From Egicoccus sp. AB-alg6-2 (lineage in GTDB: Bacteria; Actinomycetota; Nitriliruptoria; Nitriliruptorales; Nitriliruptoraceae), in contig NZ_JBGUAY010000007.1 in the NCBI RefSeq assembly GCF_041821025.1, positions 62,001 to 126,000 on the forward strand: a stretch of 64,000 bases of DNA, written 5' to 3'. Of this stretch, positions 8,698 to 28,836 are shown in pieces. Both the position numbers and the translations under genes were made by a program. Numbering within the stretch: position 1 is the stretch's first letter; the number at the start of each line of letters is the position of its first letter. The notes under the pieces were generated by a model. That model ran no database searches, was not told the origin of the DNA, and was given only the letters and a program-made list of their open reading frames with translations.

Positions 8698-8757
8698 TTA
8701 GTTCGCTCTGGGCGAGGCGCGTCGTACGGCCACGCGCGAGAACAGACAGGACGTTCG

Positions 8758-10044
8758 ATGCTCAAGCAGGAGATCAACGAGCTGCTGACGCAGACCGGTC
8801 CGGGAACGCCCATGGGCGCGCTCTTCCGCCAGTATTGGCTTCCCGCCCTGCTGGCCGAGGAGTTGCCCGAGCCTGGCAGCCCGCCGGTGCGGGTCAAGCT
8901 GCTGTCGGAACGCATGATCGCCTTCCGTGACGATGACGGAAACTATGGCTTGATGGACGAGTTCTGCGCCCATCGCGGGGTTTCGATGTGGTTCGGCAAG
9001 AACGAGGGCAACGGCCTCCGCTGCGCCTACCACGGCTGGAAGTACGACGTCACCGGGCAGTGCATCGATGTGCCGTCGGAGCCGGCCGAGAGCGGCTTCT
9101 GTGAGAAGGTGAAGCTGACCAGCTACCCCCTCGTCAAGGTGGGTGACATCCTCTGGGCCTACATGGGTGACCCCGAGTCGCAACCGCCGCTGCCGGAGTG
9201 GGAGTTCGCGGTCGTCCCGCCGGAGCAGACCTTCACTTCGAAGCGCTGGCAGGAGAGCAACTGGCTCCAGGCCCTCGAAGGCGGTATCGACTCCAGCCAT
9301 GTCTCCTGGCTCCACAGCGGCGGCTTGAAGAACGACCCCCTGTTCAAGGGCGCCAAGGGCAACGAGTACAACCTCAACGACATGCGGCCCTTCTTCGAGG
9401 TCGTCGACGCCGACGGCGGCCTGTTCATCGGAGCGCGCCGTAACGCCGAAGAGGGTCACTACTACTGGCGTATCACGCCCTGGGTCATGCCCGCGTTCAC
9501 CATGGTCCCGCCGCGTGGCGACCACCCCGTGCACGGCCACTTCTGGGTGCCCATCGACGACGAGAACTGCTGGGTCTTCACGTTCGACTATCACCCGGTA
9601 CGCGCGCTCACGCCCGATGAGGTCCAGGCGATGAAGGACGGACACGGCGTGCACAACGAATACGAGCCCGGAAGCTTCCGTCCGCTGCAGAACAAGGACA
9701 ACGACTACCTGATGGATCGTGAGGCGCAGAAGCGCGGCGACACGTTCTCCGGGGTCAAGGGCATCGCGATGCAGGATGCCTCGTTGCAGGAGAGCATGGG
9801 GCCGATCGTCGATCGCACCAAGGAACGCCTGGTGTCCACGGATACGGGCATCATCAAGGCCCGCCAGAAGTTGCGCCGCGCCGCCGAGGCGCTACGTGAT
9901 CACGGCACGACGCCGCCCGGGGTGGATCCCGCACATCACCAGATTCGATCCGTGGCGATCGTCCTTCCCGAGGACCAGCCATTCATCGAGGGCAGCCGCG
10001 AAGACCTCAGGGTCCGACCGGGTGTTCGCCAGACGTCGGTGTGA
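8758..10044 (+). CDS. Rieske oxygenase, phthalate 4,5-dioxygenase / LigX type
   Basis: A 428-aa single-component oxygenase subunit. The Rieske [2Fe-2S] ligands are C70-x-H72 and C89-x2-H92, followed by YHGWKYDVTGQ. The mononuclear iron site is D178-x2-H181-x4-H186 in GGIDSSHVSWLH. The N-terminus (TQTGPGTPMGALFRQYW) and PPVRVKLLSERM are typical of the phthalate 4,5-dioxygenase/5,5'-dehydrodivanillate O-demethylase group. The enzyme would oxygenate or O-demethylate a carboxylated aromatic. It needs a reductase, and none is in the window. It is first of a tightly overlapping operon running to 15535. The next gene overlaps its stop (GTGA). Confidence 0.9.
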   Translation: MLKQEINELLTQTGPGTPMGALFRQYWLPALLAEELPEPGSPPVRVKLLSERMIAFRDDDGNYGLMDEFCAHRGVSMWFGKNEGNGLRCAYHGWKYDVTGQCIDVPSEPAESGFCEKVKLTSYPLVKVGDILWAYMGDPESQPPLPEWEFAVVPPEQTFTSKRWQESNWLQALEGGIDSSHVSWLHSGGLKNDPLFKGAKGNEYNLNDMRPFFEVVDADGGLFIGARRNAEEGHYYWRITPWVMPAFTMVPPRGDHPVHGHFWVPIDDENCWVFTFDYHPVRALTPDEVQAMKDGHGVHNEYEPGSFRPLQNKDNDYLMDREAQKRGDTFSGVKGIAMQDASLQESMGPIVDRTKERLVSTDTGIIKARQKLRRAAEALRDHGTTPPGVDPAHHQIRSVAIVLPEDQPFIEGSREDLRVRPGVRQTSV

Positions 10045-10604
10045 ACATGCGCAACCCGACACTGCTCAACAGTTGCGCCCGGGCGGCGACGGCCGCCGAG
10101 GCCCGGTTCCGTATCAACGGACCGGAGCCGGCGCCCCGCGCGACGCGTGTCATCGCGCTCGATCCGGGCGCCGCGGCTCTCGTCGCCGCGACAGCCGAGG
10201 ATCGTCCCTGGCACGGCGCCCACTTCCTGACGTACGAGTCCTCACTGCCGATGGGTGAGGGCCAGGAACTCACCGTCGACGCGGTGGTGCGGGGGCGGAC
10301 GACGGTGGACGCGGTTCTGCGAACCGCTGACGGCCGCGAGTCGCGGCTCAGCGACGAACTCGACGGTGCGGACGTGGCCGTCATGATCGCGACAGCGGAC
10401 GACCATGCCGAGGCCGCCTTGATGATCGGTGCCGCCTGCGCGCGACGCGGCATCATGACGGCCGGGCTCGTCGTCCCGAACGGCAACGGTGAAGCCGGCC
10501 GGATCGACCGCACGGTCTCGATGCTGCGGCCGTACGCCATGGTGCTGCTCGTCTCCAACGACAAGGACGACCTGCCGGAGGTGCTGGCCGCCTTGCGCGC
10601 CTGA
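10041..10604 (+). CDS. Unknown operon protein between Rieske oxygenase and PanB homologue
   Basis: A 187-aa protein without a confident family match. The GTG start overlaps the oxygenase stop by 4 bases, showing translational coupling. The C-terminal half looks like a small alpha/beta domain: a strand-helix unit with DVAVMIATADDHAEAALMIG, then MTAGLVVPNG and a further strand YAMVLLVSNDKDD. No signal peptide or membrane helix, so it is probably cytosolic. It may be a subunit or accessory factor for the PanB-like enzyme 42 bases downstream. This is inference from gene order only. Confidence 0.55.
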   Translation: MNMRNPTLLNSCARAATAAEARFRINGPEPAPRATRVIALDPGAAALVAATAEDRPWHGAHFLTYESSLPMGEGQELTVDAVVRGRTTVDAVLRTADGRESRLSDELDGADVAVMIATADDHAEAALMIGAACARRGIMTAGLVVPNGNGEAGRIDRTVSMLRPYAMVLLVSNDKDDLPEVLAALRA

Positions 10605-10645
10605 GTCATGCCCGCCCACGGCCGTCTTCCGAAGAAGTGAGTGAC

Positions 10646-11479
10646 ATGAGTTCCGAGGACCGGATCACCCTGCCTGCCGTGCAGCAGATGAAGCGCGATG
10701 GCCGCAAGGCGGTGTGTGCGGTGGCCTGGGACTACCAGATCGCCCGGATCGTCGATCGCGCGGGGGTCGACATCGTGTCGGTCGGCGACACGGTGGGCGT
10801 GAATCTCTGGGGACAGGCCAATCCCCTCGAGATCACCATGGAGCAACTGCTCGTGGTGGCCCAGGCGGTCCGTCGCGGCGTCTCGCGGGCACTGGTGAGC
10901 TGTGACTTTCCTTTCGGTCCCCTCCAGGAGGGCCCGGACGCGGCCGTGCGGGCCGCCATCCGGCTCGTGAAGGAGGCCGGCGTGGACATCGTGAAACTCG
11001 ATGGTGCGGCCGAGTTTCCCGAAGCGGTCGAAGCCATCGATCGCGCGGGGATACCCGTGTTCGCCCAGTTCGGCATTACGCCGCAGACCGCCCTGCGCCA
11101 TGGCATCGACTACCAGGCGGCCGCCGACGTCCAGGTCCCGCCCGAGATGACCGAGGAGATGGTCGCCCAGGCCCGGATGCTCGAGGAGGCGGGTGCGTCG
11201 CTGCTCAATTTCACCAACTCCGGACCGGTCGTCGGCCCTGAGGTGGTGGCTGCGGTCTCCATCCCCGTCCTCGGCGGCTTCGGCGGGGGGCCCTGGCTCG
11301 ACGGACGTATCCGGATGGCTCATGCCGCCATCGGGTACGCCGCGAAGAATCTTGATTCGCCGGCGGACACCTATGCCAACGTGGCACAGATCACGTACGA
11401 GGCGATCCAGGCCTACGCCGCGGATGTCCGCGCGGGACGCCAGATCAAGGGCGGCATTCCCGTAACGCCGCCGCAGTAA
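10646..11479 (+). CDS. Divergent ketopantoate hydroxymethyltransferase (PanB) homologue
   Basis: A 277-aa TIM-barrel protein of the PanB family. The GDTVG metal motif (D48), DFPF (D87) and VKLDG are recognisable. Key PanB residues differ: the usual VKLEGG glutamate is Asp (D119), GDSLG is GDTVG, GHxGLTPQ is AQFGITPQ. The segment that carries the catalytic Glu in PanB (VLExVP) is LLNFTNSGP. It sits inside an aromatic-oxygenase operon rather than with panC, so it is unlikely to make pantothenate. An aldol or retro-aldol step on a pathway keto acid is more plausible. ATG at 10646 preferred; GTG at 10637 possible. Confidence 0.75.
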   Translation: MSSEDRITLPAVQQMKRDGRKAVCAVAWDYQIARIVDRAGVDIVSVGDTVGVNLWGQANPLEITMEQLLVVAQAVRRGVSRALVSCDFPFGPLQEGPDAAVRAAIRLVKEAGVDIVKLDGAAEFPEAVEAIDRAGIPVFAQFGITPQTALRHGIDYQAAADVQVPPEMTEEMVAQARMLEEAGASLLNFTNSGPVVGPEVVAAVSIPVLGGFGGGPWLDGRIRMAHAAIGYAAKNLDSPADTYANVAQITYEAIQAYAADVRAGRQIKGGIPVTPPQ

Positions 11480-11504: not shown

Positions 11505-12356
11505 GTGCCGACGGTCACCATCGACGGAATCCAGACCGAGTACCGGTTGGTCGGAGAAGGCCCCCCGCTGCTGATGTTCTCGCCGGGGGGCTTCAACGCG
11601 GTGGCCGACAACTGGTCAGATCTCGGGGTGTACCGCCGGATTCGACTGCTCGACGAGTTGCCGCGCCGCCACACCTGCATCCTCTTCGATCGTCGCGAGT
11701 CCGGCCGCTCCGGCGGACGGGTCGAACGCCTCACCTGGGCGCACTACGTCGAGCAGGGGCGCGGCCTGCTCGACCACCTCGACATCGAACGCGCCCACCT
11801 GATGGGAGGCTGTGTCGGCTGCTCGGTCGTGGCGTCCTTCGCGGTCGCCTATCCCGCTCGGGTCGCCAGCATGGTCCTGTACTCCCCGGCGGGGGGCGCG
11901 AGGTACCGCATGACCAGTCGTGCGCGATTCGAGCGGCACCTCGCGTTCGTGGAGGAGGAGGGGCTCGGAGGCGTCGTCGAACTGGCTCGCTCCAGCGAGG
12001 ACGGATTCTCGAAGGACCCCCGACTCGGCCCCTGGGTCTCCGTGATCCGCAACGATCCCGGCTTCGCGGAGCGGTATGCCGACTACGACCCGGAGGCCTA
12101 CCGCATACTGGTGACCGGGCTCTCACGCGCGATGTTCGACCGCGACTCGGTTCCCGGCCCTGAACCCGAGGACCTGATGCTGCTCGACGTCCCCGCACTC
12201 GTCGTTCCCGGCAACGACGGCTCGCACGCCACGTCCGCAGCCCACTATCTCCACGAGTGCCTGCCGCGCGCCGAGTACTGGGACGTCCCGGTCGAGGAGC
12301 AGACCGCGACTTCTGCACCGTCGAGGATCGCGGGCTTCCTCGAAGCGCACGCATGA
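11505..12356 (+). CDS. Alpha/beta hydrolase with Cys at the nucleophile elbow
   Basis: A 283-aa alpha/beta-hydrolase-fold protein. The oxyanion-loop region MFSPGGFNAV and the segment ILFDRRESGRSGG are typical. The nucleophile elbow, normally Gly-x-Ser-x-Gly, reads GGCVGC, so Cys103 replaces serine, as in dienelactone hydrolases. The cap domain is about residues 135-215. The C-terminal VPALVVPGNDGSHATSAAHYL region should supply Asp/His. It could hydrolyse a lactone, enol-lactone or C-C bond of a ring-fission product. ATGA overlap with the downstream dioxygenase alpha gene. Confidence 0.8.
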   Translation: MPTVTIDGIQTEYRLVGEGPPLLMFSPGGFNAVADNWSDLGVYRRIRLLDELPRRHTCILFDRRESGRSGGRVERLTWAHYVEQGRGLLDHLDIERAHLMGGCVGCSVVASFAVAYPARVASMVLYSPAGGARYRMTSRARFERHLAFVEEEGLGGVVELARSSEDGFSKDPRLGPWVSVIRNDPGFAERYADYDPEAYRILVTGLSRAMFDRDSVPGPEPEDLMLLDVPALVVPGNDGSHATSAAHYLHECLPRAEYWDVPVEEQTATSAPSRIAGFLEAHA

Positions 12357-13678
12357 CCCGCTCGCAGGAGCACAACCGCGTGCCGGGGCAACAGGCGTCG
12401 CAGGACGACGACCCGTTCCCCCTCGACGATCTCGTCCTCGACGAGCCGTACCGCTTCCGTGTCGACGGACGGGTGTACACCGACGCACACCTGTTCGCGC
12501 TCGAGATGGACCGCATTTGGCGCCGATCGTGGCTGTACGTCGGTCACGAGTCAGAGATCCGCGAGCCAGGCGACTACCGCACCGCCGTGTTGGCTCGCGA
12601 GCCGATCATCCTCAGCCGAGGAGAAGATGGCGGCATCCATGCGGTCTTCAACCGGTGCATGCATCGCGGTGCTGCCCTCTGTCGTGACGACCGTGGTCAC
12701 GCCAACCACTTCCGATGTCCGTACCACAACTGGGTCTACCGAAACGACGGCACGCTGGTCGGCATGGCACAGAAGTCCGGGTACGGCAGTCACTTCGACA
12801 CTTCCGAACTGGACCTGGTTCCCGTCCCTCGGCTCGAGGCATATCGCGGGCTCATCTTCGCGAATCTCGACCCCGCCGCCCCGGCGTTGCAGGAGCGGCT
12901 GGGCCCGAGTGCCTGGTACATCGACCAGTGGGCGGACCGGTCGCCGACCGGGCAGATGTCCGTCGCCGAGGGCGTCCATCGGTATTCCTATCCCGGCAAC
13001 TGGAAGTTTCAGCTCGAGAACGGCGTGGACGGCTACCACGGAAACTACGTGCACGACTCGTTCGTCAAGATCCTGCACCGCGCCGGCGATCGCTCACGAC
13101 AGGACGTCGTGCGGGCCCGCAACCGGCTCGGCAGCAACGCTTCCGCGAAGGGACTGCCTCGCGGTGACGGCCTGCTCGAGCGCGAAGATGGCATGTTGGG
13201 CACGTTCGACTATGCGAGTCGTGACGAGTACCGCCGTTCCCTGGTCGAGGCGCACGGTTCCGCTCGCCTCCAGGACATCCTCACGCAGCGCAACCTGCTC
13301 ATCTTTCCCAGCGTCTATCTCTTCGAGTCGCACATTCGCGTCATCCGGCCGATCTCGCCGACGTCCACGATCGTCGACACCATCCCGACGCGGATCGAAG
13401 GCATCGACGACGCCATCAACACCGAGCGGCTGCGCGAGCACGAGCGCTTCTTCGGCCCCTCCAGTTTCGGTGCGACCGACGACATCGAGATCTTCGTGCT
13501 CAATCAGACCGGTGTTCAGGCCGAGGTGCCACGCTGGCTGGACTTCTCCCGAGGTCTGGAGCGCGAGCGGGTCGCGGACAACGGCGAGCGGATCGGGCAC
13601 TCCACCGACGAAGCTCCACAACGCGCCATCTACCGCGAGTGGAGACGAATGATGCTTTCGGGGGAGGGGCCGTCGTGA
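12353..13678 (+). CDS. Ring-hydroxylating dioxygenase, alpha subunit
   Basis: A 441-aa large subunit of a two-subunit Rieske dioxygenase (benzoate/anthranilate/toluate group). The Rieske site is C102-x-H104 and C122-x2-H125 (CMHRG ... CPYHNW). The catalytic iron site is D226-x2-H229-x4-H234 in GVDGYHGNYVH. The C-terminal domain contains RNLLIFPSVYLFESHIRVIRP-like family segments. It would cis-dihydroxylate an aromatic acid together with the beta subunit encoded immediately downstream. The start overlaps the hydrolase stop (ATGA) and the stop overlaps the beta start (GTGA). No reductase gene accompanies it. Confidence 0.9.
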   Translation: MTRSQEHNRVPGQQASQDDDPFPLDDLVLDEPYRFRVDGRVYTDAHLFALEMDRIWRRSWLYVGHESEIREPGDYRTAVLAREPIILSRGEDGGIHAVFNRCMHRGAALCRDDRGHANHFRCPYHNWVYRNDGTLVGMAQKSGYGSHFDTSELDLVPVPRLEAYRGLIFANLDPAAPALQERLGPSAWYIDQWADRSPTGQMSVAEGVHRYSYPGNWKFQLENGVDGYHGNYVHDSFVKILHRAGDRSRQDVVRARNRLGSNASAKGLPRGDGLLEREDGMLGTFDYASRDEYRRSLVEAHGSARLQDILTQRNLLIFPSVYLFESHIRVIRPISPTSTIVDTIPTRIEGIDDAINTERLREHERFFGPSSFGATDDIEIFVLNQTGVQAEVPRWLDFSRGLERERVADNGERIGHSTDEAPQRAIYREWRRMMLSGEGPS

Positions 13679-14193
13679 TCTCCGACGGGGCATCCGGGGC
13701 CGCCCTGTCGACCGAACGCGCTGAGGCGGTGCTGTTCGAGGAGGCGGCACGTCTCGATGCGCGAGCGTTCGACGCGTGGCTCGAACTCTTCACCGACGAC
13801 GCGATCTACTGGCTGCCGATGGGGGTCGAGGATCCCGCCCGAGAACCGTCGCTGATCTTCGACGACCGGGCTCGAATGGAGGAGCGGGTCTTCCGGCTCA
13901 TGGACACGGCTGCCCATGCACAACTGCCACCTTCGAGGACCCAACACGACATCACCAATGTCCGAGTGGTCGAGACGACGGCAGACTGGGCGCGGGTGGC
14001 GTGTCATCTCGTGGTCCACGAGGTTCGCATCGGTGATCCGTCACAGGTCGGTCTGGGTGACGTCCGATCCTTCCCCGGTCGCTGCGAATATGTCCTGCGG
14101 CATGGCGCCGAGGGGCAGTGGCTGATCGCCGAGAAGACCGTGCGGCTCCTGGCCCGCGAGCTGCCGCAGTACAACCTGACATTCATCGTCTGA
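13675..14193 (+). CDS. Ring-hydroxylating dioxygenase, beta subunit
   Basis: A 172-aa NTF2-like small subunit. The motif EAARLDARAFDAWLELFTDD followed by IYWLPM is the typical N-terminus of BenB/XylY-like beta subunits, and it ends in the strand LPQYNLTFIV. It has a structural role in the alpha3-beta3 dioxygenase. GTG at 13675 is preceded by GGGGGAGG and overlaps the alpha stop; an in-frame GTG at 13639 inside the alpha gene is less likely. Confidence 0.88.
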   Translation: MISDGASGAALSTERAEAVLFEEAARLDARAFDAWLELFTDDAIYWLPMGVEDPAREPSLIFDDRARMEERVFRLMDTAAHAQLPPSRTQHDITNVRVVETTADWARVACHLVVHEVRIGDPSQVGLGDVRSFPGRCEYVLRHGAEGQWLIAEKTVRLLARELPQYNLTFIV

Positions 14194-14213: not shown

Positions 14214-14549
14214 ATGTGCGATGACGACGTGGGATTGCTGAGCGGCCTCGTCGGTGGGCGCCGGGGCGCCGACGACGTCGCCCTACGCCAGCGCGACGGT
14301 CGGCCGTATCTCGTCCTGCGCAACGAGTTCGCGACCGTCTGGCTCGGGATAGATCGAACGGCGAACGGCGTGCGCGTGCTGGTCACCGACCCCGAGACGG
14401 ACACCGTCATCGCGCTGGATCCACTCGAGCTCGAAGCGATATCGCGCATGACGCATCAGGATTTCGACGATCGCATCCTCGAGCGTGGGCCGGGCACGCC
14501 GAAGCGCGAGCCGACACGAGCCGTACACCACGGTCAGGAGAAGGCATGA
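14214..14549 (+). CDS. Small unknown protein of the dioxygenase operon
   Basis: A 111-aa protein, start chosen at 14214 from the GAGGGAGG upstream. It has a compact predicted beta-rich core, RPYLVLRNEFATVWLGIDRT then VRVLVTDPETDTVIALDP, followed by a helix LEAISRMTHQDF. No cysteines suitable for an iron-sulfur cluster beyond Cys2, so it is not a ferredoxin. Its position after the beta subunit suggests an accessory factor, which is inference only. The stop overlaps the next gene (ATGA). Confidence 0.6.
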   Translation: MCDDDVGLLSGLVGGRRGADDVALRQRDGRPYLVLRNEFATVWLGIDRTANGVRVLVTDPETDTVIALDPLELEAISRMTHQDFDDRILERGPGTPKREPTRAVHHGQEKA

Positions 14550-15535
14550 CCACGAAGGTTCCCGTGACGTTGGCGTGTGGCCCCTATGACCGCATGGAGG
14601 CGCTGCGGGAAGGCCTGGTACAGCCGGAGGGCGTGGCGCTCACCTATGTGCCGATCCAATCGCCGCCCGAACTGTTCGCTCGCATGGTCAAGCGGCAATC
14701 GTTCGATGTGTCCGAGATGTCGTTGTCGCTGTACACGCAGTTGCGTACCCGAGGCGAGTTTCCTTTCGTGGCGCTGCCGGTCTTCCCCTCGCGGATGTTC
14801 CGTCACGGCTACATCTTCGTCCATGCCGCGTCGGGCATCGAGCACCCGCTCGATCTCGCCGGCAAGCGGGTCGGGGTGCAGGAGTACCACCAGACTGCCG
14901 GCGTCTGGATTCGGGGGATCCTCTCGTCCCAGTACGGCGTCGATCTCGGCACGATCGCCTGGCGCGAGGGCGGCGTGAACGCGCCAAGGACCCCCGACGT
15001 CCTGGATCTGCGCCCGCGAGGTGAGTTGGACATCGAATTCGTGGGTGCGGACGTCAGCCTCGATGAATTGCTGGCAACCGGCGAAATCGACGCCTACCTC
15101 GGGGCTCGTCAGCCGCGGTCGTTCTCGACGTCGCCGGACGTGCGGCGTCTCTTTCCGGACTACCGGACGGTCGAGCGCCAGTTCTATGCAGACACGGGGA
15201 TCTTCCCCATGATGCACACCATCGTCATCCGTGAGGAGTTGCTGGAACGGCATCCGTGGCTGTCGGAGTCGCTGTTCAAGGCATTCGAGGCGGCCAAGAC
15301 CTGGTGTCTGGAGCAGATGCGCTTCTCCGGCACGGCGCGCTACACGCTGCCGTGGCTGCATGCCGACATCGAAGAGATCGATGAGGTGTTCGGTGGCGAC
15401 CCATGGCCGTACGGCCTGGAAGCCAACCGCGTGCCGCTGGAGGCATTCGTCGGGTATCTGGTGGAGCAACGGTTCCTCGACCAGCCGGTCGACATCGAGC
15501 GGCTCTTTCCGGCGCTCGAGCTGCGCAACGAGTGA
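14546..15535 (+). CDS. 4,5-dihydroxyphthalate decarboxylase family protein (copy A)
   Basis: A 329-aa protein of the Pht5/4,5-dihydroxyphthalate decarboxylase family, which has the type 2 periplasmic-binding (NMT1-like) fold but is cytosolic. Family motifs: TLACGPYDRMEALREG at the N-terminus, ALPVFPSRMFRHGYIFV, the GKRVGVQEY hinge, and ADTGIFPMMHTIVIRE. There is no signal peptide, which argues for an enzyme rather than a transport-binding protein. In phthalate degradation this step gives protocatechuate. Last gene of the 8758-15535 operon; SD AGGAG. Two further family members lie at 16031 and 19960. Confidence 0.82.
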   Translation: MTTKVPVTLACGPYDRMEALREGLVQPEGVALTYVPIQSPPELFARMVKRQSFDVSEMSLSLYTQLRTRGEFPFVALPVFPSRMFRHGYIFVHAASGIEHPLDLAGKRVGVQEYHQTAGVWIRGILSSQYGVDLGTIAWREGGVNAPRTPDVLDLRPRGELDIEFVGADVSLDELLATGEIDAYLGARQPRSFSTSPDVRRLFPDYRTVERQFYADTGIFPMMHTIVIREELLERHPWLSESLFKAFEAAKTWCLEQMRFSGTARYTLPWLHADIEEIDEVFGGDPWPYGLEANRVPLEAFVGYLVEQRFLDQPVDIERLFPALELRNE

Positions 15536-15542
15536 GCCAGCG

Positions 15543-16010
15543 CTATGACGTGTCTGACACCGGGAGCGTCTCGCCGCGTTCGAGCGCCGCGATCTGGTCG
15601 AGGCGGCGCTGGTGACGGCCCCCCTTGAACGGCGTGGCCAGCCACAACGCGACCAGGTCGCGCGCCCGTTCGAGGGAGACCACCTTGGCTCCGAGCACCA
15701 GGACGTTCGCGTCGTTGTGCGCCCGTGAGATCTCCGTCGTCAGCGGATCCTGGCCCAGGCCGGCCCGGATGCCGGCCATCTTGTTGAAAGCGATGTGCTC
15801 GCCAGAGCCCGTTCCTCCTATGAAGATTCCACGGTCGGCCGTGCCGTCCAAGATGCGCCGAGCCACCGCCTGGCAGAGCGGGGGGTAGTCGACAGGGGAC
15901 GCATCGTGGCCGCCGTGGTCGTCGACGGTATGTCCCTCGGCCTGCAACCACGCGGTCAGGTCGCTCTTGAACTCGATCCCGTTGTGATCGGCGGCGATGG
16001 CGATGTGCAT
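15543..16010 (-). CDS. RpiB/LacAB-family sugar-phosphate isomerase
   Basis: A 155-aa protein with the RpiB fold. MHIAIAADHNG starts the Rossmann-like core with the catalytic-site D8/H9. The loop GIFIGGTGSGEHIAFNK replaces the E. coli-type cysteine by glycine and supplies Glu71, as in the mycobacterial (Glu-dependent) RpiB subgroup. HNDANVLVLGAK is the phosphate-binding region. It could be ribose-5-phosphate isomerase. Its location directly after a decarboxylase-family gene in a catabolic cluster suggests isomerisation of another substrate. ATG with GGGAGG upstream; the gene before it ends 20 bases away. Confidence 0.8.
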   Translation of the reverse strand: MHIAIAADHNGIEFKSDLTAWLQAEGHTVDDHGGHDASPVDYPPLCQAVARRILDGTADRGIFIGGTGSGEHIAFNKMAGIRAGLGQDPLTTEISRAHNDANVLVLGAKVVSLERARDLVALWLATPFKGGRHQRRLDQIAALERGETLPVSDTS

Positions 16011-16030: not shown

Positions 16031-16981
16031 TCAGCCGATGAGCTCGTGGGTGCCGGCAGCGAACAACTCCTCCATCGTCGGGGGGCGATCCAAGATGTGT
16101 TGTGTGACGGCATGTCGGAGCAGCTCGTCGATCATGGCCCGGTTGGGCGCGATCCCGTACGGCAGCGGATCTCCGCCCGTCAGTTCCATGACCCGGCGGT
16201 GCATCGCATCGACCCGGGTCGGCGCCTCGAGCTCATCGGCTTCGAGGCGCTCCACGTAGCGACGCTTCGACGCTGCGAACGCCTCGAACAGGTCGGCTGC
16301 CAACCCGGGATGCTCGGCGAGCAGATCGTCGCGCACGACGACGAGGTGGTTGATGGGGTACAGGTCCCGCTCCGCCAATGCCTGGAAGCCCGCTTCGTCG
16401 GCATCCGGCAGCAGTGGACCGATCCGCTCGTCGTCGGTCTTGAGCCCACCGACCACGGCGTCCACATGCCCGTCGAGGAGGAGTTGGGACAGATCCTCGC
16501 CCTCGTGCAGGTCCTCGACGTTCGGGGGCGGGCGGTATCCGGCCACGTGCTCCTCGTCGGACCGCACCCACGTCACCGTATCGAGGTCGACGCCGTATTC
16601 GTCCTGCAGGATCGCGCGTGCCCAGACGCCGGTGGTCACGGTGTAGCCGCGGTTGACGCCGATCCGGCGACCAGCGAGGTCTGACGGCGGCGGCGACGGA
16701 CGCGTGGTGTCGTGCAGGATGGCGCCGTGGTGCAGGTCCCGCACCAAGAAGATCGGGAGCGCCGTGAAGCGTGCACCGTGGGCCTTCGCGCACAGGTAGG
16801 TCGTGAACGCCAGTTCGCAGACGTCGTAGCTCAACTCACGCACCATGCGCCTGAAGGCATGCACCAGGACCGGTACCTCCTCGAAGTCGAGGGAACACGT
16901 CGAGGGCGCGACGACGCCGGCCTTCAGGTCGGCATTGTTCCCCTGGCTCCGGCTGACGGCCGTGAGTCGCAGTTCCGCCAT
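16031..16981 (-). CDS. 4,5-dihydroxyphthalate decarboxylase family protein (copy B, divergent)
   Basis: A 316-aa relative of copies A and C, more diverged. The family pattern is kept as YDVCELAFTTYL, ALPIFLVRDLHHGAILH, GRRIGVNRGYTVTTGVWARA and DPLPYGIAPNRAMIDELL. The FPSRMFRHG motif of A and C is altered, so substrate or activity may differ. No signal peptide. ATG at 16981 has GGAGGAC upstream. It is divergent from the alcohol dehydrogenase operon and forms a two-gene unit with the RpiB-like gene. Confidence 0.75.
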   Translation of the reverse strand: MAELRLTAVSRSQGNNADLKAGVVAPSTCSLDFEEVPVLVHAFRRMVRELSYDVCELAFTTYLCAKAHGARFTALPIFLVRDLHHGAILHDTTRPSPPPSDLAGRRIGVNRGYTVTTGVWARAILQDEYGVDLDTVTWVRSDEEHVAGYRPPPNVEDLHEGEDLSQLLLDGHVDAVVGGLKTDDERIGPLLPDADEAGFQALAERDLYPINHLVVVRDDLLAEHPGLAADLFEAFAASKRRYVERLEADELEAPTRVDAMHRRVMELTGGDPLPYGIAPNRAMIDELLRHAVTQHILDRPPTMEELFAAGTHELIG

Positions 16982-17061
16982 GTACCCGTCCTCCAAATGA
17001 CAGACCATTGGACCTTCGCATAGAGTGTAACGCCACGAGACAGACGGGCGAGGAGCGCAGC

Positions 17062-18180
17062 ATGGCGGAGACGGTCTTGGCGGCGGTACGTACCGCCCCC
17101 GGCACGACGGAGTTGCGCGAGTTTGCCCGACCGTCCATCGACGCCGACTCCGCGCTGATGCGCGTGGAGGTCGCGGGCATCTGCGGCACCGATGTCAAGA
17201 TGTATGCCAAGCCGCCGTTCACCGACCCGGTCATCATGGGACACGAGAACATCGGTGTGCTCGCCGACGCCGGGCCCAAGTTCCTGGAACGGCACGGCCT
17301 GGAGGTCGGCGACCGCATCTTCGTCGAGCACTACGTCGCGTGCTACCGCTGCGACTGGTGCCACCTCGGCGAATACCGTCACTGCGAGAAGACCGACTGG
17401 CGAACCAATCCCGACGCGCGCCGCTACGGCTACACCTCGTCGGAGCATCCGGGCACGTTGTGGGGCGGGTTCTCCCAGTTCATGTATCTGCCGTGGAATG
17501 CCGTGATCCACCGGGTTCCGACGAACGTCTCGGCCGAACTGGCCGGCATCGTCACACCGTTGTCCAACGGCATCGAATGGGCCCTCATCGCCGCGGGCAT
17601 CGGCTACGACGCGAAGGTTCTGATCCAGGGGCCGGGGCAGCAGGGCCTGTCCCAGGTCGTCGCCTGCAGCCAGGCGGGTGCCTCCAAGATCATCGTGACC
17701 GGCACGACCAGGGACCGAGCGCGCCTGGAGCTGGCGGAGGAGTTGGGCGCGGACGTCACGGTGGACGTGCTCACCGACGACCCCCTCGGAAAGATCATGG
17801 AAGCGACGAACGGGGTGGGCGTCGACTACGTACTGGACTGCACGGCGGGGGCTGGTACGGCCCCGGTGCTGCTCGGTATCGACGCGCTGAAGCGGCGTGA
17901 AGGGACCATGCTCATCCAGGGCGAACTCGCGGCTTTCCCGGACTTCCCGATCAAGAAGCTCACGGAGAAGGCGATCACCATCAAGAGTGCCCGCGGGCAC
18001 AGCTACCGCGCGTGCGAGCTCGCACTACGTCAGCTCGCGTCGCACCGGTTTCCCCTCGAGAAGCTGTCGACACACACGTTCGGTCTCGACCAGGTCGACC
18101 GGGCCATTCGGGCTGTCGGCGGCGAGGTGGAGCAGGACGTCATCCATGTGTCGCTGCTGCCATGGGAGGGACAGGCGTGA
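17062..18180 (+). CDS. Zinc-dependent alcohol dehydrogenase (MDR family)
   Basis: A 372-aa medium-chain dehydrogenase. Catalytic zinc ligands are C41 (GICGTD) and H61-E62 (GHEN). The structural zinc site is C94, C97, C100 and C108. The nucleotide fold starts at [15 protein letters not shown]. It oxidises or reduces an alcohol/aldehyde with NAD(P). In context it could act on a semialdehyde or hydroxy-acid intermediate; no specific substrate can be named. ATG at 17062 with GGAG upstream. First of a six-gene operon; its stop overlaps the next start (GTGA). Confidence 0.87.
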
Positions 18181-18866
18181 GCGTCGTCGTCCGCAACATT
18201 CCGCGTGCCGATCGTGATGTCGTCGACGCTTTCTCCGGCGTCGGCGTCGCGACGGTCCACGAAGCCCAGGGTCGCACCGGCCTGCTGGCTCCGCAGATCG
18301 CCCCCATCTACTCCGGGGCCCATGTCGCCGGCTCAGCCGTCACCGTCAGCACGGCGCCGGCGGACAACTGGATGCTGCACGTCGCGGTCGAGTGGTGCCA
18401 GGACGGTGACGTACTGGTCGTCGCTCCCACGTCGTTCTCCGATGCCGGCTACTTCGGTGAGCTCCTCGCGACGGCACTCCAGGTTCGCGGCGTCCGGGGT
18501 CTCGTCATCGATGCGGGGTGTCGCGACGTGAGCGAGCTCACGGCCATGGGATTCCCGGTCTGGTCGAAGTGTGTGTCAGCCGAGGGAACGGTGAAGGAGA
18601 CCCTCGGTAGCGTCAATGTGCCGATCGTGTGTGCCGGTCAGGCCGTGCAGCCGGGGGATGTCGTCGTTGCCGACGACGACGGTGTGGTGGTCGTGCCGCG
18701 GCTCCGCGCGCGGGAGGTGTTGGCGTCATCCCAGGCGCGGGAGGAGAAGGAGGCGCGGGGTCGCGAGCGCTATGCCGCCGGTGAACTCAGCCTCGACGTC
18801 CACGGGATGCGGGAACGGCTGGAGCGGAAGGGCCTGCGCTACGTCGACCACCCCGAGGACGTCTGA
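18177..18866 (+). CDS. 4-carboxy-4-hydroxy-2-oxoadipate aldolase (LigK type, RraA fold)
   Basis: A 229-aa class II pyruvate aldolase with the RraA fold, which would split 4-carboxy-4-hydroxy-2-oxoadipate into pyruvate and oxaloacetate. Diagnostic segments are [20 protein letters not shown] (conserved Arg-Asp pair) and [20 protein letters not shown], then [16 protein letters not shown]. The length fits LigK/ProA rather than the ~160-aa RraA regulators. GTG at 18177 is preceded by GGGAGG and overlaps the dehydrogenase stop. The adjacent LigJ-like gene supplies its substrate. Confidence 0.88.
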
Positions 18867-18894: not shown

Positions 18895-19917
18895 ATGATC
18901 ATCGACGTCCATGGCCACTACACGACGGCACCATCGCAACTTCGGGAATTCCGCGATCGACAACTGGCGCGGCGCGGCGAGCCGGGCCGGGAGCGGCCGA
19001 TCCTGGCGGCGATCAGCGACGAACAGATCCGGGAATCGGTGGAGCGGAACCAGTTGCGGGTGCTGCGAGAGCGCGGTGGCGATCTGATGCTGCTCTCACC
19101 CAAGGCATCCGGCATGGAACATCATGTCCCGGACGAGGCGACAGCGACGGATTGGGCCCGGGCGAACAACGACCTCGTGCACCGGGTGACCCGGCTGTTC
19201 CCGCAACACTTCGCCGGTGTCTGTCAGCTCCCGCAGACGCCAGGCGGGCCACTGGGCCCCGTCGTCACCGAACTGCGCCGCTGCGTGGACGAACTCGGCT
19301 TCGTCGGCTGCAACGTGAACCCGGATCCGTCGGGTGGCCACTGGAACGGCCCGCCGATGACCGACGAGTACTGGTTTCCGCTGTACGAGGCGATGGTCGA
19401 CCTCGACGTGCCGGCCATGATCCACGTCTCGAGTTCCTGCAACGACAATTTCCACACCCTGGGGGCGCACTACCTCAACGCGGACACCGCCGTCTTCATG
19501 CAACTGCTCGAGGGTGACTTGTTCGGGCGCTTTCCAACGCTGCGTTTCGTGATCCCGCACGGCGGGGGAGCGGTGCCCTACCACTGGGGCCGTTTCCACG
19601 GCTTGGCCGCTCGCATGGAGCGCCCGCCGCTGGAGGAGCACGTGATGCGCAACGTGTACTTCGACACCTGCGTCTATCACCAGGCTGGCGTCGAACTGCT
19701 GCATCGGGTCGTCGGCACCGACCGTCTGCTGTTCGCTTCCGAGATGCTCGGCGCCGTCCGCGGCACCAATCCAGAGACCGGATCCGGTTGGGACGACACG
19801 AAGCGATACGTCGATGCGCTCGGGCTCGGCGACGACGAACGCGCACGGCTGTTCGAGGGGAACGCCCGCCGGGTGTATCCGCGTCTGGACACGCTGCTCG
19901 TGGCCCACGGCCGCTGA
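18895..19917 (+). CDS. 4-oxalomesaconate hydratase (LigJ type, amidohydrolase)
   Basis: A 340-aa amidohydrolase-superfamily enzyme that hydrates 4-oxalomesaconate to 4-carboxy-4-hydroxy-2-oxoadipate in the protocatechuate 4,5-cleavage pathway. It starts with the metal motif MIIDVHGHYTT (H6, H8). LigJ-typical segments are NVNPDPSGGHW, AMIHVSSSCN, HYLNADT, VIPHGGGAVPYHWGRF, YFDTCVYHQAG, LLFASEMLGAVRG and FEGNARRVYPRLD. The ATG at 18895 follows CAGGGAGA. Pairing with the LigK-type aldolase makes the assignment strong. Confidence 0.9.
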   Translation: MIIDVHGHYTTAPSQLREFRDRQLARRGEPGRERPILAAISDEQIRESVERNQLRVLRERGGDLMLLSPKASGMEHHVPDEATATDWARANNDLVHRVTRLFPQHFAGVCQLPQTPGGPLGPVVTELRRCVDELGFVGCNVNPDPSGGHWNGPPMTDEYWFPLYEAMVDLDVPAMIHVSSSCNDNFHTLGAHYLNADTAVFMQLLEGDLFGRFPTLRFVIPHGGGAVPYHWGRFHGLAARMERPPLEEHVMRNVYFDTCVYHQAGVELLHRVVGTDRLLFASEMLGAVRGTNPETGSGWDDTKRYVDALGLGDDERARLFEGNARRVYPRLDTLLVAHGR

Positions 19918-19959
19918 ACACGCGGAGTGGGGGCGTTCGAACGACGAGAAGGGAACGAT

Positions 19960-20952
19960 GTGGGCAACCTGACGTTGACGCTGGCCTGCGGTGACTACGA
20001 CCGAACCAGGGCGCTGCACGACGAGACCGTGAAGCCCGACGGGATCGATCTGACCTATCTGCGGCTCCCCGTCGAGGAGACGTTCTTCCGCATGATGCGC
20101 CACCAGGAGTTCGAGGTGGCCGAGATGTCGTTCTCGTCCTACGTCGTCTCGCTCCAGCGCGATCCCGCGCCGTTCATCGCGCTGCCGGTCTTCCCGTCAC
20201 GGATGTTCCGGCACGGCGGGATCTACATCAACACCCGTTCGGGGATCGAGCGACCAGAGGACCTGCGCGGAAAGGTGGTCGGCGTTCCGGAGTACCAACT
20301 GAGCGCCAATGTCTGGATTCGGGGCATGCTCGCGGACCGCTACGACGTGCCGGTCGACTCGGTGCTCTACCGGACCGGCGGTCAGGAGCAGGCCGGCCGG
20401 ATCGAAAAGGCGCGCATCGAGCTTCCGGACAACATCAGGGTGGTACCGATCGAGGCCACGCAGACGTTGTCGCAGATGCTGGCGGAGGGGGAGATCGACG
20501 CGCTGTACTCGCCGCGGATCCCTCGTCCGTTCGCCGATCGCGATCCCCGGGTCGCCCGACTCTTCCCCGATGTCGTGCAGGCCGAGAAGGACTATTTCGC
20601 CGCGACCGGCATCTTCCCGATCATGCACGTCGTCGCGTTGCGCCGCGACGTCTACGAGGCCAACCGATGGGTCGCCCAGTCGCTGACGAAGGCGTTCGTA
20701 CGCGCAAAGGCCGAGGTGTTCGACCGACTCTACGATTCGTCGGCGCTCCGGTTCATGCTGCCGTGGCTGAACCAGTATCTCGAGGAGGCACGCGACCTGC
20801 TCGGCGACGACTACTGGTCCTACGGCCTCGAGCCGAATCGCGAGGTGCTCGACACCTTTCTTCGCTACCACCACGAGCAGGGGTTGTCGAAGGTGCGCCT
20901 GACGCCGGAGGAGTTGTTCGCCCCGGAGTCGGTCGAGTCCTTCCTGATCTAG
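19960..20952 (+). CDS. 4,5-dihydroxyphthalate decarboxylase family protein (copy C)
   Basis: A 330-aa protein close to copy A: TLTLACGDYDRTRALHDE, FEVAEMSFSSYV, FIALPVFPSRMFRHGGIYIN, GKVVGVPEYQLSANVWIRG, ATGIFPIMHVVALRRD. No secretion signal. The GTG at 19960 is favoured by GAAGGGA. Its position right after ligJ supports a decarboxylation step feeding, or parallel to, the 4,5-cleavage branch. A role as solute-binding-like sensor is an alternative. Confidence 0.8.
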   Translation: MGNLTLTLACGDYDRTRALHDETVKPDGIDLTYLRLPVEETFFRMMRHQEFEVAEMSFSSYVVSLQRDPAPFIALPVFPSRMFRHGGIYINTRSGIERPEDLRGKVVGVPEYQLSANVWIRGMLADRYDVPVDSVLYRTGGQEQAGRIEKARIELPDNIRVVPIEATQTLSQMLAEGEIDALYSPRIPRPFADRDPRVARLFPDVVQAEKDYFAATGIFPIMHVVALRRDVYEANRWVAQSLTKAFVRAKAEVFDRLYDSSALRFMLPWLNQYLEEARDLLGDDYWSYGLEPNREVLDTFLRYHHEQGLSKVRLTPEELFAPESVESFLI

Positions 20953-26113: not shown

Positions 26114-27250
26114 ATGGTCAAGGACGCGATCGTCAACGACAAGATGGCGGCCAAGTTCGCCACGGAGAAGGAAACGCCCTACACGCGCTGGGTGGCCTCC
26201 GAGGGTCTGGAGATCATCGCGGCGCACTATGTGCCCGACCTCCGCACCGTCGAGCTCAAGCCATGGGATCGCCGGGGGGGCAAGGGCGTGTTCATCAACC
26301 ATGAGGCGTCCCGCACCTCCAACGACTGCTACGTGTGCGAGATCCCGGCTGGGGGCAAGCTCGCCCCGCAGCGACAGCTGTTCGAGGAGATGATTCTCGT
26401 CCTCGAAGGGCAGGGATCGACTCGGGTTTGGAACGACGCCGGGGCCGAGGTGACGTTCGAGTGGCAAGCGGGCTCGATGTTCGCCATCCCCCTGAACACC
26501 AACCACCAGCACTTCAACGGCTCGGGCCAGAAGGCAGCGAGATTCGTCTCGTCGACGAACATGCCCCCCGTGGTGAACCTCTACGACGACGTCGACTTCG
26601 TGTTCGGTACCGCGCACGACTTCACGAACCGGTTCAACGGTGAGCCCGACTACTTCGCCCCGAAGGGGGAGCAGAAGGGTTTGCTCCTGGACACCAACTT
26701 CGTCGCGGACGCGGTCAACCTCCCGCTGATCGAAGCCAAGGAACGCGGAGCGGGTGGCGGCCACATTCGTTTTGCCATGGCCAAGGGGTCGATGAACAGC
26801 CACATCTCCCAGTTCCCGACCGCGACGTACAAGAAGGCGCACCGTCATGGCCCTGGTGCGCACGTGATCATCCTGTCCGGCACCGGATACAGCCTGATGT
26901 GGCCCGAAGGTGAAGAACCGCGTCGTTACGAGTGGGGGCCAGGGGCGATGATCGTGCCGCCGAACATGTGGTTCCACCAGCACTTCAACAGCGGCACGGA
27001 GCCGGCTCGCTACCTCGCGTTCAAGCACGAGGTCGTCTCGGTGCGCAACGCGCAAGGAGTGCCGAAGGCCTGGATCAGCCAGCGAATCGGGGGTGACCAG
27101 ATCGACTACGCCGACGAATCCGAGTTGGTGCGTTCGACCTTCCGTGACGCGCTCGCCGAGGTGGGTCTCGAACCGGCCATGGACGAGGTCTACGAGGCCG
27201 AACTCGAGGACCTTCCGCCCAAGCCGGACCACGCCGACGCGCCTGCCTGA
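26114..27250 (+). CDS. Bicupin protein (copy 1)
   Basis: A 378-aa double-cupin protein. The first cupin keeps the glutamate (FEEMILVLEGQG) and the closing PLNTNHQHFNG segment, but Gln replaces the His-x-His pair (PQRQLF). The second has HRHGPGAHVIILSGTGY and PPNMWFHQHFN, so it can bind metal although the usual Glu is His. Such bicupins include gentisate-type ring-cleavage dioxygenases, and related proteins next to EutA homologues are sometimes named ethanolamine ammonia-lyase activating proteins. Neither role is proven. SD GAAGGG. Eight bases separate it from the EutA-like gene. Confidence 0.7.
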   Translation: MVKDAIVNDKMAAKFATEKETPYTRWVASEGLEIIAAHYVPDLRTVELKPWDRRGGKGVFINHEASRTSNDCYVCEIPAGGKLAPQRQLFEEMILVLEGQGSTRVWNDAGAEVTFEWQAGSMFAIPLNTNHQHFNGSGQKAARFVSSTNMPPVVNLYDDVDFVFGTAHDFTNRFNGEPDYFAPKGEQKGLLLDTNFVADAVNLPLIEAKERGAGGGHIRFAMAKGSMNSHISQFPTATYKKAHRHGPGAHVIILSGTGYSLMWPEGEEPRRYEWGPGAMIVPPNMWFHQHFNSGTEPARYLAFKHEVVSVRNAQGVPKAWISQRIGGDQIDYADESELVRSTFRDALAEVGLEPAMDEVYEAELEDLPPKPDHADAPA

Positions 27251-27258
27251 TCCGGACC

Positions 27259-28836
27259 GTGACGGCGCCCAGCGGCGAGCCCGACGGTCGAGTGCACTCG
27301 CCGTATTCTCCCGACCATCACCACGACCACGACCACGACGCTCTCAGCCCGATCGAAGAGAACCCGATCTGGCAGCAGGACAACGTCGTCCTGCACAGCG
27401 TTGGCATGGATGTCGGTTCGTCCGGTACGCAGGTGGTGTTCTCCCGGCTGCACCTGCGACGGATCGGGGAGGAACTCACCAGCCGCTATATCGTGGTGCG
27501 CCGCGACACGCTGTATCACTCGCCGGTGGTGCTCACGCCGTACGCCGACGACGAGCGGATCGATGCCGCGCAACTCGGCGGGATCATCGACGAAGCGTAT
27601 GCCGCCGCAAACGTGCGACCCGAGGACGTGGACACGGGCGTCGTCATCCTGACCGGTGAGGCGCTTCGCCGGCGCAATGCCGAGCGAATCACCCAGATCC
27701 TCGCTGAACGCGGCGGTGAGCTCGTCTGCGCGAGCGCCGGTCACAACATGGAGGCGATGCTTGCCGCGTACGGGTCTGGTGCGGCGAAGGCGTCCTACGA
27801 GCAGCGCACCCGGCTGCTGAACATCGACATCGGCGGCGGGACCACCAAGCTTGCCGTCGTCGACCACGGTCGCGTCGTCGCCACCGCGGCCGTTCACGTG
27901 GGCGGGCGGCTGCAGGTCATCGACGAGGAAGGCCGCATCGTGCGGCTGGATCCCGCGGGCGCGGAACATGCCCGCCGCGCCGGCTTCGCCTGGCAGGTCG
28001 GCGAACACATCGACCCGCAACGACTGGACGAGGTGGCCGAAACCATGGCCGATGCGCTGCTGTCGGCGATCTGGGACCGACCGCTCGACGACGCCGTCGA
28101 GCAGCTCTACCTGACGGACGTCATCGCCGACCTCGGTCCGATCCACGGGGTGATGGTCTCCGGGGGGGTCGCCGAGTACGTCTATGACCGGGAACAGCGG
28201 CATTTCGGCGATCTGGGCCGGCCCTTGGGCAGGGCACTCCGAGAACGGTTCGATGCGCACGGGGTCCCACTGCTCCCAGCAGGGGAGTGCATCCGCGCGA
28301 CGGCGCTGGGAGCGTCGGAGTACAGCGTGCAGTTGAGCGGCAACACCGGATGGATCTCCAACCACGATGCCCTGCTGCCGCGCCGCAACCTGCAGGTGGT
28401 CAGGCCGCCGTACGTGCTCGACGACGAGATCCTGCCGGCCGATATCGCGACGGCCGTTCGGGACCACCTCGCGGCGTTCGACAAGGACCATCCGGATGCC
28501 GAGGTGGCGCTCGCGCTCCACTTCTCCGGTCCGCCGGCCTACGAGCGGCTGCACGCCTTCGCTGCGGGTGTCGCCCAAGGGCTGCGTACGCGTATCGACG
28601 GCGGCCATCCGCTGTACCTCATGCTCGATGGCGACGTGGCCATGACGCTCGGACGGTTGCTCGACGAGGAGTTCGGCGTGCGTGCCGACCTGCTGGTCAT
28701 CGACGGGCTCAGCCTGTGGGACTTCGATTTCATCGACCTCGGGCGCCTGCGGCATCCCTCCAACACGGTGCCCGTCACGATCAAGTCGCTGGTCTTCAGC
28801 GAAGACCCACGCCACGGCGGCAAGGCGCGGGTCTAG
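27259..28836 (+). CDS. EutA-like ammonia-lyase reactivating ATPase (orphan)
   Basis: A 525-aa protein of the EutA family of chaperones that eject damaged cobalamin from ethanolamine ammonia-lyase. Actin-fold ATPase motifs: phosphate-1 GMDVGSSGTQVVF (about residue 49), phosphate-2 NIDIGGGTTKLAVVD, and adenosine motif GVMVSGGVAEYVY. A His/Asp run (HHHDHDHD, residues 20-27) could bind metal. No eutB, eutC or other B12 enzyme is in the window, so its client is unknown. GTG start without a clear SD. Confidence 0.8.
   Translation: MTAPSGEPDGRVHSPYSPDHHHDHDHDALSPIEENPIWQQDNVVLHSVGMDVGSSGTQVVFSRLHLRRIGEELTSRYIVVRRDTLYHSPVVLTPYADDERIDAAQLGGIIDEAYAAANVRPEDVDTGVVILTGEALRRRNAERITQILAERGGELVCASAGHNMEAMLAAYGSGAAKASYEQRTRLLNIDIGGGTTKLAVVDHGRVVATAAVHVGGRLQVIDEEGRIVRLDPAGAEHARRAGFAWQVGEHIDPQRLDEVAETMADALLSAIWDRPLDDAVEQLYLTDVIADLGPIHGVMVSGGVAEYVYDREQRHFGDLGRPLGRALRERFDAHGVPLLPAGECIRATALGASEYSVQLSGNTGWISNHDALLPRRNLQVVRPPYVLDDEILPADIATAVRDHLAAFDKDHPDAEVALALHFSGPPAYERLHAFAAGVAQGLRTRIDGGHPLYLMLDGDVAMTLGRLLDEEFGVRADLLVIDGLSLWDFDFIDLGRLRHPSNTVPVTIKSLVFSEDPRHGGKARV

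Follow-up and report, generated by a model that had tools for sequence, protein, structure and literature searches.

A conserved PanB-like protein lacking the catalytic Glu and His in a Rieske oxygenase gene cluster, beside a predicted degenerate FtsZ relative

We analyzed a 64,000-nucleotide stretch of Egicoccus sp. AB-alg6-2 (contig NZ_JBGUAY010000007.1, positions 62,001 to 126,000; here, the window), in which a gene for a PanB-like protein lies in a Rieske oxygenase operon, directly after a gene for a 187-residue protein, u187. An earlier note, made from the letters alone, had placed both open reading frames (ORFs) correctly, and the operon setting that it described is real; it read the pair as a neofunctionalized PanB homologue with a dedicated partner of no known family. 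Relatives of the PanB-like protein were sought across 84,980 species genomes, and of the 160 found, the best 80, with 65 to 92% identity to the window protein, were retrieved with their loci. For the neighborhood comparison, 24 window proteins were matched by blastp to the ORFs of these 80 loci, 45 of which, the full loci, have at least 8 kb on each side. Four genes form the center of the locus:

8758..10044, + strand: Rieske oxygenase of the isophthalate/phthalate dioxygenase type (LigXa_C; PF19301, 119.5 bits), closest to isophthalate dioxygenase, IPDO (461 bits to 9ina)
10041..10604, + strand: u187, 187 amino acids, predicted degenerate relative of the FtsZ/tubulin GTPase domain (from VIA-align, hhalign and an intermediate that matches PF00091)
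10637..11479, + strand: PanB-like protein, 280 amino acids, without the catalytic Glu and His (PF02548; residue signature in 80/80 sequences; clade support 100/100)
11505..12356, + strand: alpha/beta hydrolase with a Cys nucleophile in a GGCxG motif (PF00561; in 45/45 full loci; Cys in 69/70)

The Rieske start at 8758 is an ATG taken from the alignment with 9ina, the searches having been run with 8752-10041. The GTG start of u187 overlaps the Rieske stop by 4 nt.

A PanB fold with a rewired active site

The PanB-like protein passes the Pfam PF02548 cut-off easily (211.8 bits against 28.7) and falls below both NCBIfam cut-offs for PanB (PRK00311, 189.6 of 272; panB equivalog, 154.8 of 207.55). 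Alignment with solved PanBs from the PDB confirmed the replacements that had been noticed by eye: VKLDG in place of VKxEG, AQFGITPQT in place of GHxGLTPQS and LLNFTNSGP in place of VLExVP. In the numbering of Escherichia coli PanB, we take Asp45 and Asp84 of the metal site and Lys112 to be matched by D51, D90 and K120. Glu181 (in LExVP) and His136 (in HxGLTPQ) are the catalytic residues of PanB, and Glu114 is a further metal-site residue. The catalytic Glu of PanB removes a proton from ketoisovalerate.

The changes are uniform. In an alignment of 80 sequences, made up of the window protein and 79 loci (L042, whose frame is broken in its contig, was excluded here and from the tree), D51, D90, K120, D122, Q144, F192 and S195 are invariant. 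The position of Glu181 holds Thr in 79 sequences and Gln in one, so that none keeps the catalytic Glu, while Asp replaces Glu114 and Gln replaces His136 in 80/80. His and Glu181 are both present in all 46 canonical PanBs compared. Because the replacements are fixed across 80 orthologues, they are not chance changes, and because the defining PanB residues are missing and the NCBIfam scores too low, we do not file the protein as PanB. To judge from these residues, loss of the catalytic Glu and the adjacent His makes ketopantoate synthesis very unlikely, while retention of the metal-site Asp pair and the Lys suggests that binding of Mg2+ and of a 2-oxo acid, with stabilization of its enolate, should still be possible. 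A copy from the same genus (L011, G003:C8:163314-164123) carries one in-frame TGA and is either a pseudogene or the product of a sequencing error.

Structure prediction, which the earlier note had proposed as a check, pointed to PanB first. The best of five AlphaFold models (pLDDT 88) gave 1oy0 as its top Foldseek match (E of 4e-20), and the first 28 rows were PanBs; PA4872 oxaloacetate decarboxylase, methylisocitrate lyase and dimethylmalate lyase followed. Rows from the isocitrate lyase/phosphoenolpyruvate (PEP) mutase superfamily had E values of about 1e-9 to 1e-10, which places the model within the superfamily fold. Lyases of this superfamily carry out C-C chemistry on 2-oxo acids. Within the TIM-barrel isocitrate lyase/PEP mutase fold, we place the PanB-like protein on the PanB branch, as a neofunctionalized member.

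Phylogenetic placement, a second proposed check, set the PanB-like proteins apart from the 46 canonical PanBs with 100/100 support in a maximum-likelihood tree, on a long stem (1.23 + 1.87 changes per column). Among the best 80 of the 160 relatives, the hosts are Actinomycetota, such as Streptomyces flaveolus NRRL B-1589 (L081), Pseudomonadota, Acidobacteriota and one Candidatus Eremiobacterota genome. Two contigs of metagenome-assembled genomes titled Klebsiella pneumoniae (L082 and L084) carry the cluster with a PanB-like protein 65 to 66% identical; the species label looks doubtful.

Absence of another panB from the genome would have spoken against a new function, but the window's own genome (3.74 Mb, 98% complete) encodes a canonical PanB on another contig (384 bits). 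Among the genomes of 40 of the 80 loci, all 40 gave a PanB match over the cut-off, and 39 held both a PanB-like copy (188 to 222 bits) and a canonical PanB (265 to 380 bits), which in genome G125 lies in two pieces; the sole exception without canonical panB is G118, a 2.0-Mb metagenome-assembled genome. A drifted but still working second ketopantoate hydroxymethyltransferase would account for the PanB fold, the retained Asp pair and Lys and the PF02548 match. We consider it highly improbable, given that the catalytic Glu and His are absent from all 80 sequences, that the NCBIfam PanB cut-offs are failed, that canonical panB is present in 39/40 genomes and that the neighborhood is catabolic. 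The single clade, the invariant loss of Glu and His, the separate panB and the conserved catabolic neighborhood together uphold the proposal of neofunctionalization.

The clade is a new variant within a known fold family, and no description of it, of its cluster or of a Rieske operon containing an FtsZ-like protein was found in the open-licence literature. Databases would call such genes panB and so assign to vitamin synthesis an enzyme that, in several phyla, very probably has a catabolic role. The clade also offers a clean natural case of rewiring of the PanB active site, together with a testable pathway gene set.

The conserved cluster and a candidate pathway

The tightest conserved neighbor of the PanB-like gene is the alpha/beta hydrolase gene, not u187: it lies directly 3' of the PanB-like gene in 64 of the 77 loci with enough downstream DNA. 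In the 45 full loci, the hydrolase was found in 45, the Rieske oxygenase in 38, alcohol dehydrogenase (ADH) in 36, u187 (by BLAST) and SBP2 in 33 each, LigK and LigJ in 31 each, SBP3 in 23, the cupin protein and GntR in 21 each, the EutA-like protein in 19 and RpiB in 15. The other cluster genes in the window are as follows:

14546..15535, + strand: SBP1, substrate-binding-protein-like, paralogue of SBP2 and SBP3 (PF12974, 28.1 bits; linked by blastp to the SBP family of the loci)
15543..16010, - strand: RpiB/LacAB-type sugar-phosphate isomerase (over the PRK05571 cut-off)
16031..17008, - strand: SBP2, decarboxylase-like (blastp targets shared with SBP1; no Pfam family at E of 1e-4)
17062..18180, + strand: medium-chain Zn alcohol dehydrogenase (PF08240 and PF00107, matched on ORF 17008-18180; start read by eye)
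18168..18866, + strand: LigK-type 4-carboxy-4-hydroxy-2-oxoadipate (CHA) aldolase, RraA-like (TIGR02798, 338 bits, cut-off 304.5)
18895..19917, + strand: LigJ-type 4-oxalomesaconate hydratase, an amidohydrolase (465 bits to 6dxq; next-best enzyme, 198 bits)
19927..20952, + strand: SBP3, 4,5-dihydroxyphthalate decarboxylase family (310 bits to 9jp7)
26114..27250, + strand: cupin protein (PF07883)
27259..28836, + strand: EutA-like protein (PF06277, 382 bits)

SBP1, SBP2 and SBP3 are thus three paralogues of the 4,5-dihydroxyphthalate decarboxylase/substrate-binding-protein type within one cluster. The EutA-like protein, a homologue of a reactivating factor, adjoins the cupin gene, and no EutB or EutC gene was noticed nearby. 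An FAD monooxygenase gene, a gene of the MFS type and a second Rieske oxygenase (12347-14193) do not belong to the conserved core; the last, located within the cluster, is a dioxygenase of the benzoate/3-phenylpropionate type with alpha and beta subunits, both of which occur, among the 80 loci, only in the closest relative, L032.

The tight coupling of the hydrolase gene, together with the loss of catalytic residues, would also fit a dead PanB fold retained as a subunit that gives the hydrolase structural or regulatory support. This is unlikely, although less so than a second PanB. Several phyla share the Asp pair, the Lys and many further residues without variation, and D122 and Q144 have become fixed instead of drifting, a pattern that favors a new active site.

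The Rieske oxygenase bears on the probable substrate. In the IPDO of Comamonas testosteroni KF1, the carboxylate anchors are R234 and H257 (PMC12445078). We mapped IPDO residue numbers by hand counting on an alignment with the Rieske protein (offset 23); the anchors are conserved in 67/68 and 66/68 Rieske rows, respectively. Three other positions (F249, L198 and F333) are altered, and the substrate is therefore probably not plain isophthalate. An F249H variant of IPDO was engineered with the aim of binding an ortho carboxylate (PMC12445078), which makes an isophthalate-like substrate with an extra acidic group a fair guess, but no more than that.

For this cluster, which we read as one for the breakdown of aromatic acids, we infer each reaction, and the sequence of the early ones, as follows. 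The isophthalate-dioxygenase-type Rieske enzyme would act first, and the Zn alcohol dehydrogenase second, as the diol dehydrogenase; a protein of the dihydroxyphthalate decarboxylase type would follow, and then ring opening. The hydrolase and the PanB-like protein would come next, upstream of LigJ, and LigJ and LigK would finish the sequence, yielding pyruvate and oxaloacetate. In four loci (L051, L054, L067 and L106), a protein that looks by eye like an HpcH/HpaI aldolase is found where LigK is missing, so that the final aldolase step probably does not fall to the PanB-like protein. LigA was not found in 18 of the 26 genomes tested (the window's own and 17 of the 25 others), LigB-type dioxygenases not having been searched for; this makes it less likely that 4-oxalomesaconate comes from protocatechuate 4,5-cleavage. 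Dipicolinate degradation, on which the open-licence literature offered nothing relevant, was dropped, as LigJ and LigK better suit a benzenoid tricarboxylic intermediate.

Taken together, these results are best accommodated by a model in which the PanB-like protein, alongside the Cys hydrolase, would use Mg to cleave a C-C bond of a branched 2-oxo acid with additional carboxylation, or to isomerize such an acid, as a lyase or isomerase, and in which u187 is not its partner; we give this model a probability of about 0.55. Several points weigh against it. The substrate and activity are ones that we infer; the proposed gene set names no enzyme for ring opening; and Mg binding is predicted from sequence, for a site in which one metal-site residue has changed from Glu to Asp. 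The five AlphaFold models range in pLDDT from 88 to 74, and the model is less sure in the loop near residues 150-170 and in the region 210-220. Finally, four rhizobial clusters without a PanB-like gene hold the Rieske oxygenase (73 to 75% identity), u187, the hydrolase (56 to 58%), the ADH (63 to 65%), a LigJ-like protein (58 to 59%) and a more distant RraA protein (32 to 33%). Among the matches listed for plasmid records (399 records, all below 60%), the best PanB-like identity was 35.5%; rhizobial chromosomes were not searched. The PanB-like protein is therefore not needed in every version of the pathway, and it may serve as a module specific to a single substrate, or another enzyme may be able to replace it.

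The predicted FtsZ relative u187 and the gene that it accompanies

The claim that u187 has no known family holds for the Pfam and NCBIfam libraries, in which no match exceeded a cut-off and PF00091 gave none at E of 1, but does not hold for more distant kin. A profile built from an alignment of 37 copies, from which copies with long false 5' extensions had been excluded, matched FtsZ in 24 of 26 listed PDB matches (best E of 0.0038). The AlphaFold model (pLDDT 85, pTM 0.79) yielded FtsZ in all 50 rows listed by VIA-align (Z of 12.2 to 11.0) and was superposed on 6umk over 134 residues at a root mean square deviation of 3.9 A, model residues 31-186 covering FtsZ 10-198; Foldseek alone gave an E of about 1e-3 only. 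With hhalign, u187 matched a profile of 28 FtsZs at 93.9% (E of 2.6e-8, 154 columns), while reversed FtsZ reached 0.04% and none of 12 other families exceeded 0.23%.

Searched over 296 genomes of the phylum, the u187 profile found matches in 13: three held u187, one an intermediate, eight matched through FtsZ itself (GGGTGTG present) and one through a response-regulator-like protein. The intermediate (L176, 9716-10273, minus strand) passes PF00091 with 45.3 bits against a cut-off of 33. It follows an ADH gene, and a 58%-identical Rieske gene on the same strand precedes it by 4.1 kb. The GTPase T4 motif GGGTGTG is present in 0/62 u187-family members, a T1-like glycine stretch is kept in six of the 62, and u187 stops at the equivalent of FtsZ residue 198, before the C-terminal domain. 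The C-terminal domain and T7 loop of FtsZ, both missing from u187, serve polymerization. On the strength of alignments and the model, u187 is thus best described as a degenerate relative of the FtsZ/tubulin GTPase domain that lacks the GTPase motifs.

It is conceivable that the likeness reflects a shared Rossmann-like arrangement rather than kinship, as the single-sequence signal is weak, T4 is missing throughout and the window u187 has no Pfam Tubulin match. We regard this as improbable, since the top 50 structural rows are FtsZ, the hhalign score far exceeds its controls, the next best genome matches of the profile are FtsZ itself and the PF00091-passing intermediate has a Rieske gene close by on its strand. 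Kinship, if confirmed, would make u187 a new branch of the tubulin superfamily and show the tubulin fold in an unexpected, non-cytoskeletal role, with its GTPase motifs gone and its genes tied to oxygenase operons. PADLOC gave no match for the window protein; a defense role was rejected, the intermediate's PADLOC match (14.8 bits, E of 0.0057) being weak and taken as chance. One locus (L038, 3430-3858) has a second, more divergent FtsZ-domain-like ORF beside a typical u187.

Which gene u187 accompanies was assessed in 88 loci (the 80 PanB-like loci, four rhizobial and four fetched), which gave 62 matches in 60 loci. In 53 of the 62, u187 lies directly behind the Rieske gene on the same strand, with a median gap of 12 nt, adjacency being measured between aligned ends rather than stop-to-stop ORFs. 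By profile, u187 is present in 53/80 PanB-like loci, a count that replaces the 48/80 obtained with BLAST, which missed divergent Pseudomonadota copies; it was not detected by profile in the other 27, among them 18 in which the upstream DNA extends for 2.5 kb or more. In several Pseudomonadota (L035, L050, L106 and probably L054 and L067), u187 instead stands behind an ADH gene and a CobW-type GTPase gene. The CobW-type gene (TGYLGAGKTT) directly precedes the u187-like gene at L035 14687-15745, L050 5457-6545 and L106 15765-16892, and the TGYLGAGKTT motif occurs in 13/80 loci. Five plasmid matches to u187 were found, one of which, H43, was left aside.

A dedicated enzyme pair, as the earlier note had proposed, would explain why the two genes are adjacent on the same strand in the window and why the PanB-like start lies within 600 nt of the u187 end in 37/80 loci. 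It is nonetheless very doubtful in light of the preference of u187 for the Rieske gene, its presence in rhizobial clusters without PanB-like, its position behind ADH and CobW-type genes in several Pseudomonadota and its lack of detection in 27 of the 80 PanB-like loci. These adjacency and absence counts indicate that u187 tracks the pathway, and most often the Rieske gene, rather than the PanB-like gene. Most likely, u187 would support the Rieske system in assembly, stability or electron transfer, without GTP hydrolysis. A bolder variant, in which this GTPase-dead FtsZ domain was recruited to help the Rieske oxygenase in assembly or electron transfer and the PanB-like protein replaces the missing LigAB ring-opening dioxygenase through metal-dependent, non-oxygenolytic C-C cleavage, in a widespread but so far undescribed pathway for an aromatic polycarboxylate, is speculative, and we think it unlikely.

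Comparison with known systems

With IPDO, the cluster Rieske oxygenase shares G172 and V178 as well as the two anchors, but differs from it at F249 (Arg in 65/68), L198 (Asn in 65/68) and F333 (Ile in 66/68). The lower pathway of protocatechuate 4,5-cleavage shares both of its end enzymes, LigJ and LigK, with the cluster.

The FtsZ GTPase domain (PF00091) and u187 have in common the predicted fold over FtsZ residues 10-198, whereas u187 lacks T4, has mostly lost T1, has no C-terminal domain and occurs with Rieske and ADH genes. PMC2875224 describes FtsZl2 as retaining all motifs and FtsZl1 as adjoining vWA-domain and kinase genes; the setting of u187 is unlike those described there.

The lyases of the isocitrate lyase/PEP mutase superfamily, such as 2,3-dimethylmalate lyase (3fa3) and PA4872 (3b8i), share their fold with the PanB-like protein at 13 to 18% identity, much below PanB, and are likened to it by fold and not by signature residues. 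PanB itself (EC 2.1.2.11; 1oy0 and 1m3u) shares the fold, about 30% identity, the metal-site Asp pair and the Lys. The PanB-like protein departs from it in having Thr for the catalytic Glu, Gln for the His and Asp for the metal-site Glu, and also in its longer loop after TPQ, its catabolic neighborhood and its separate clade.

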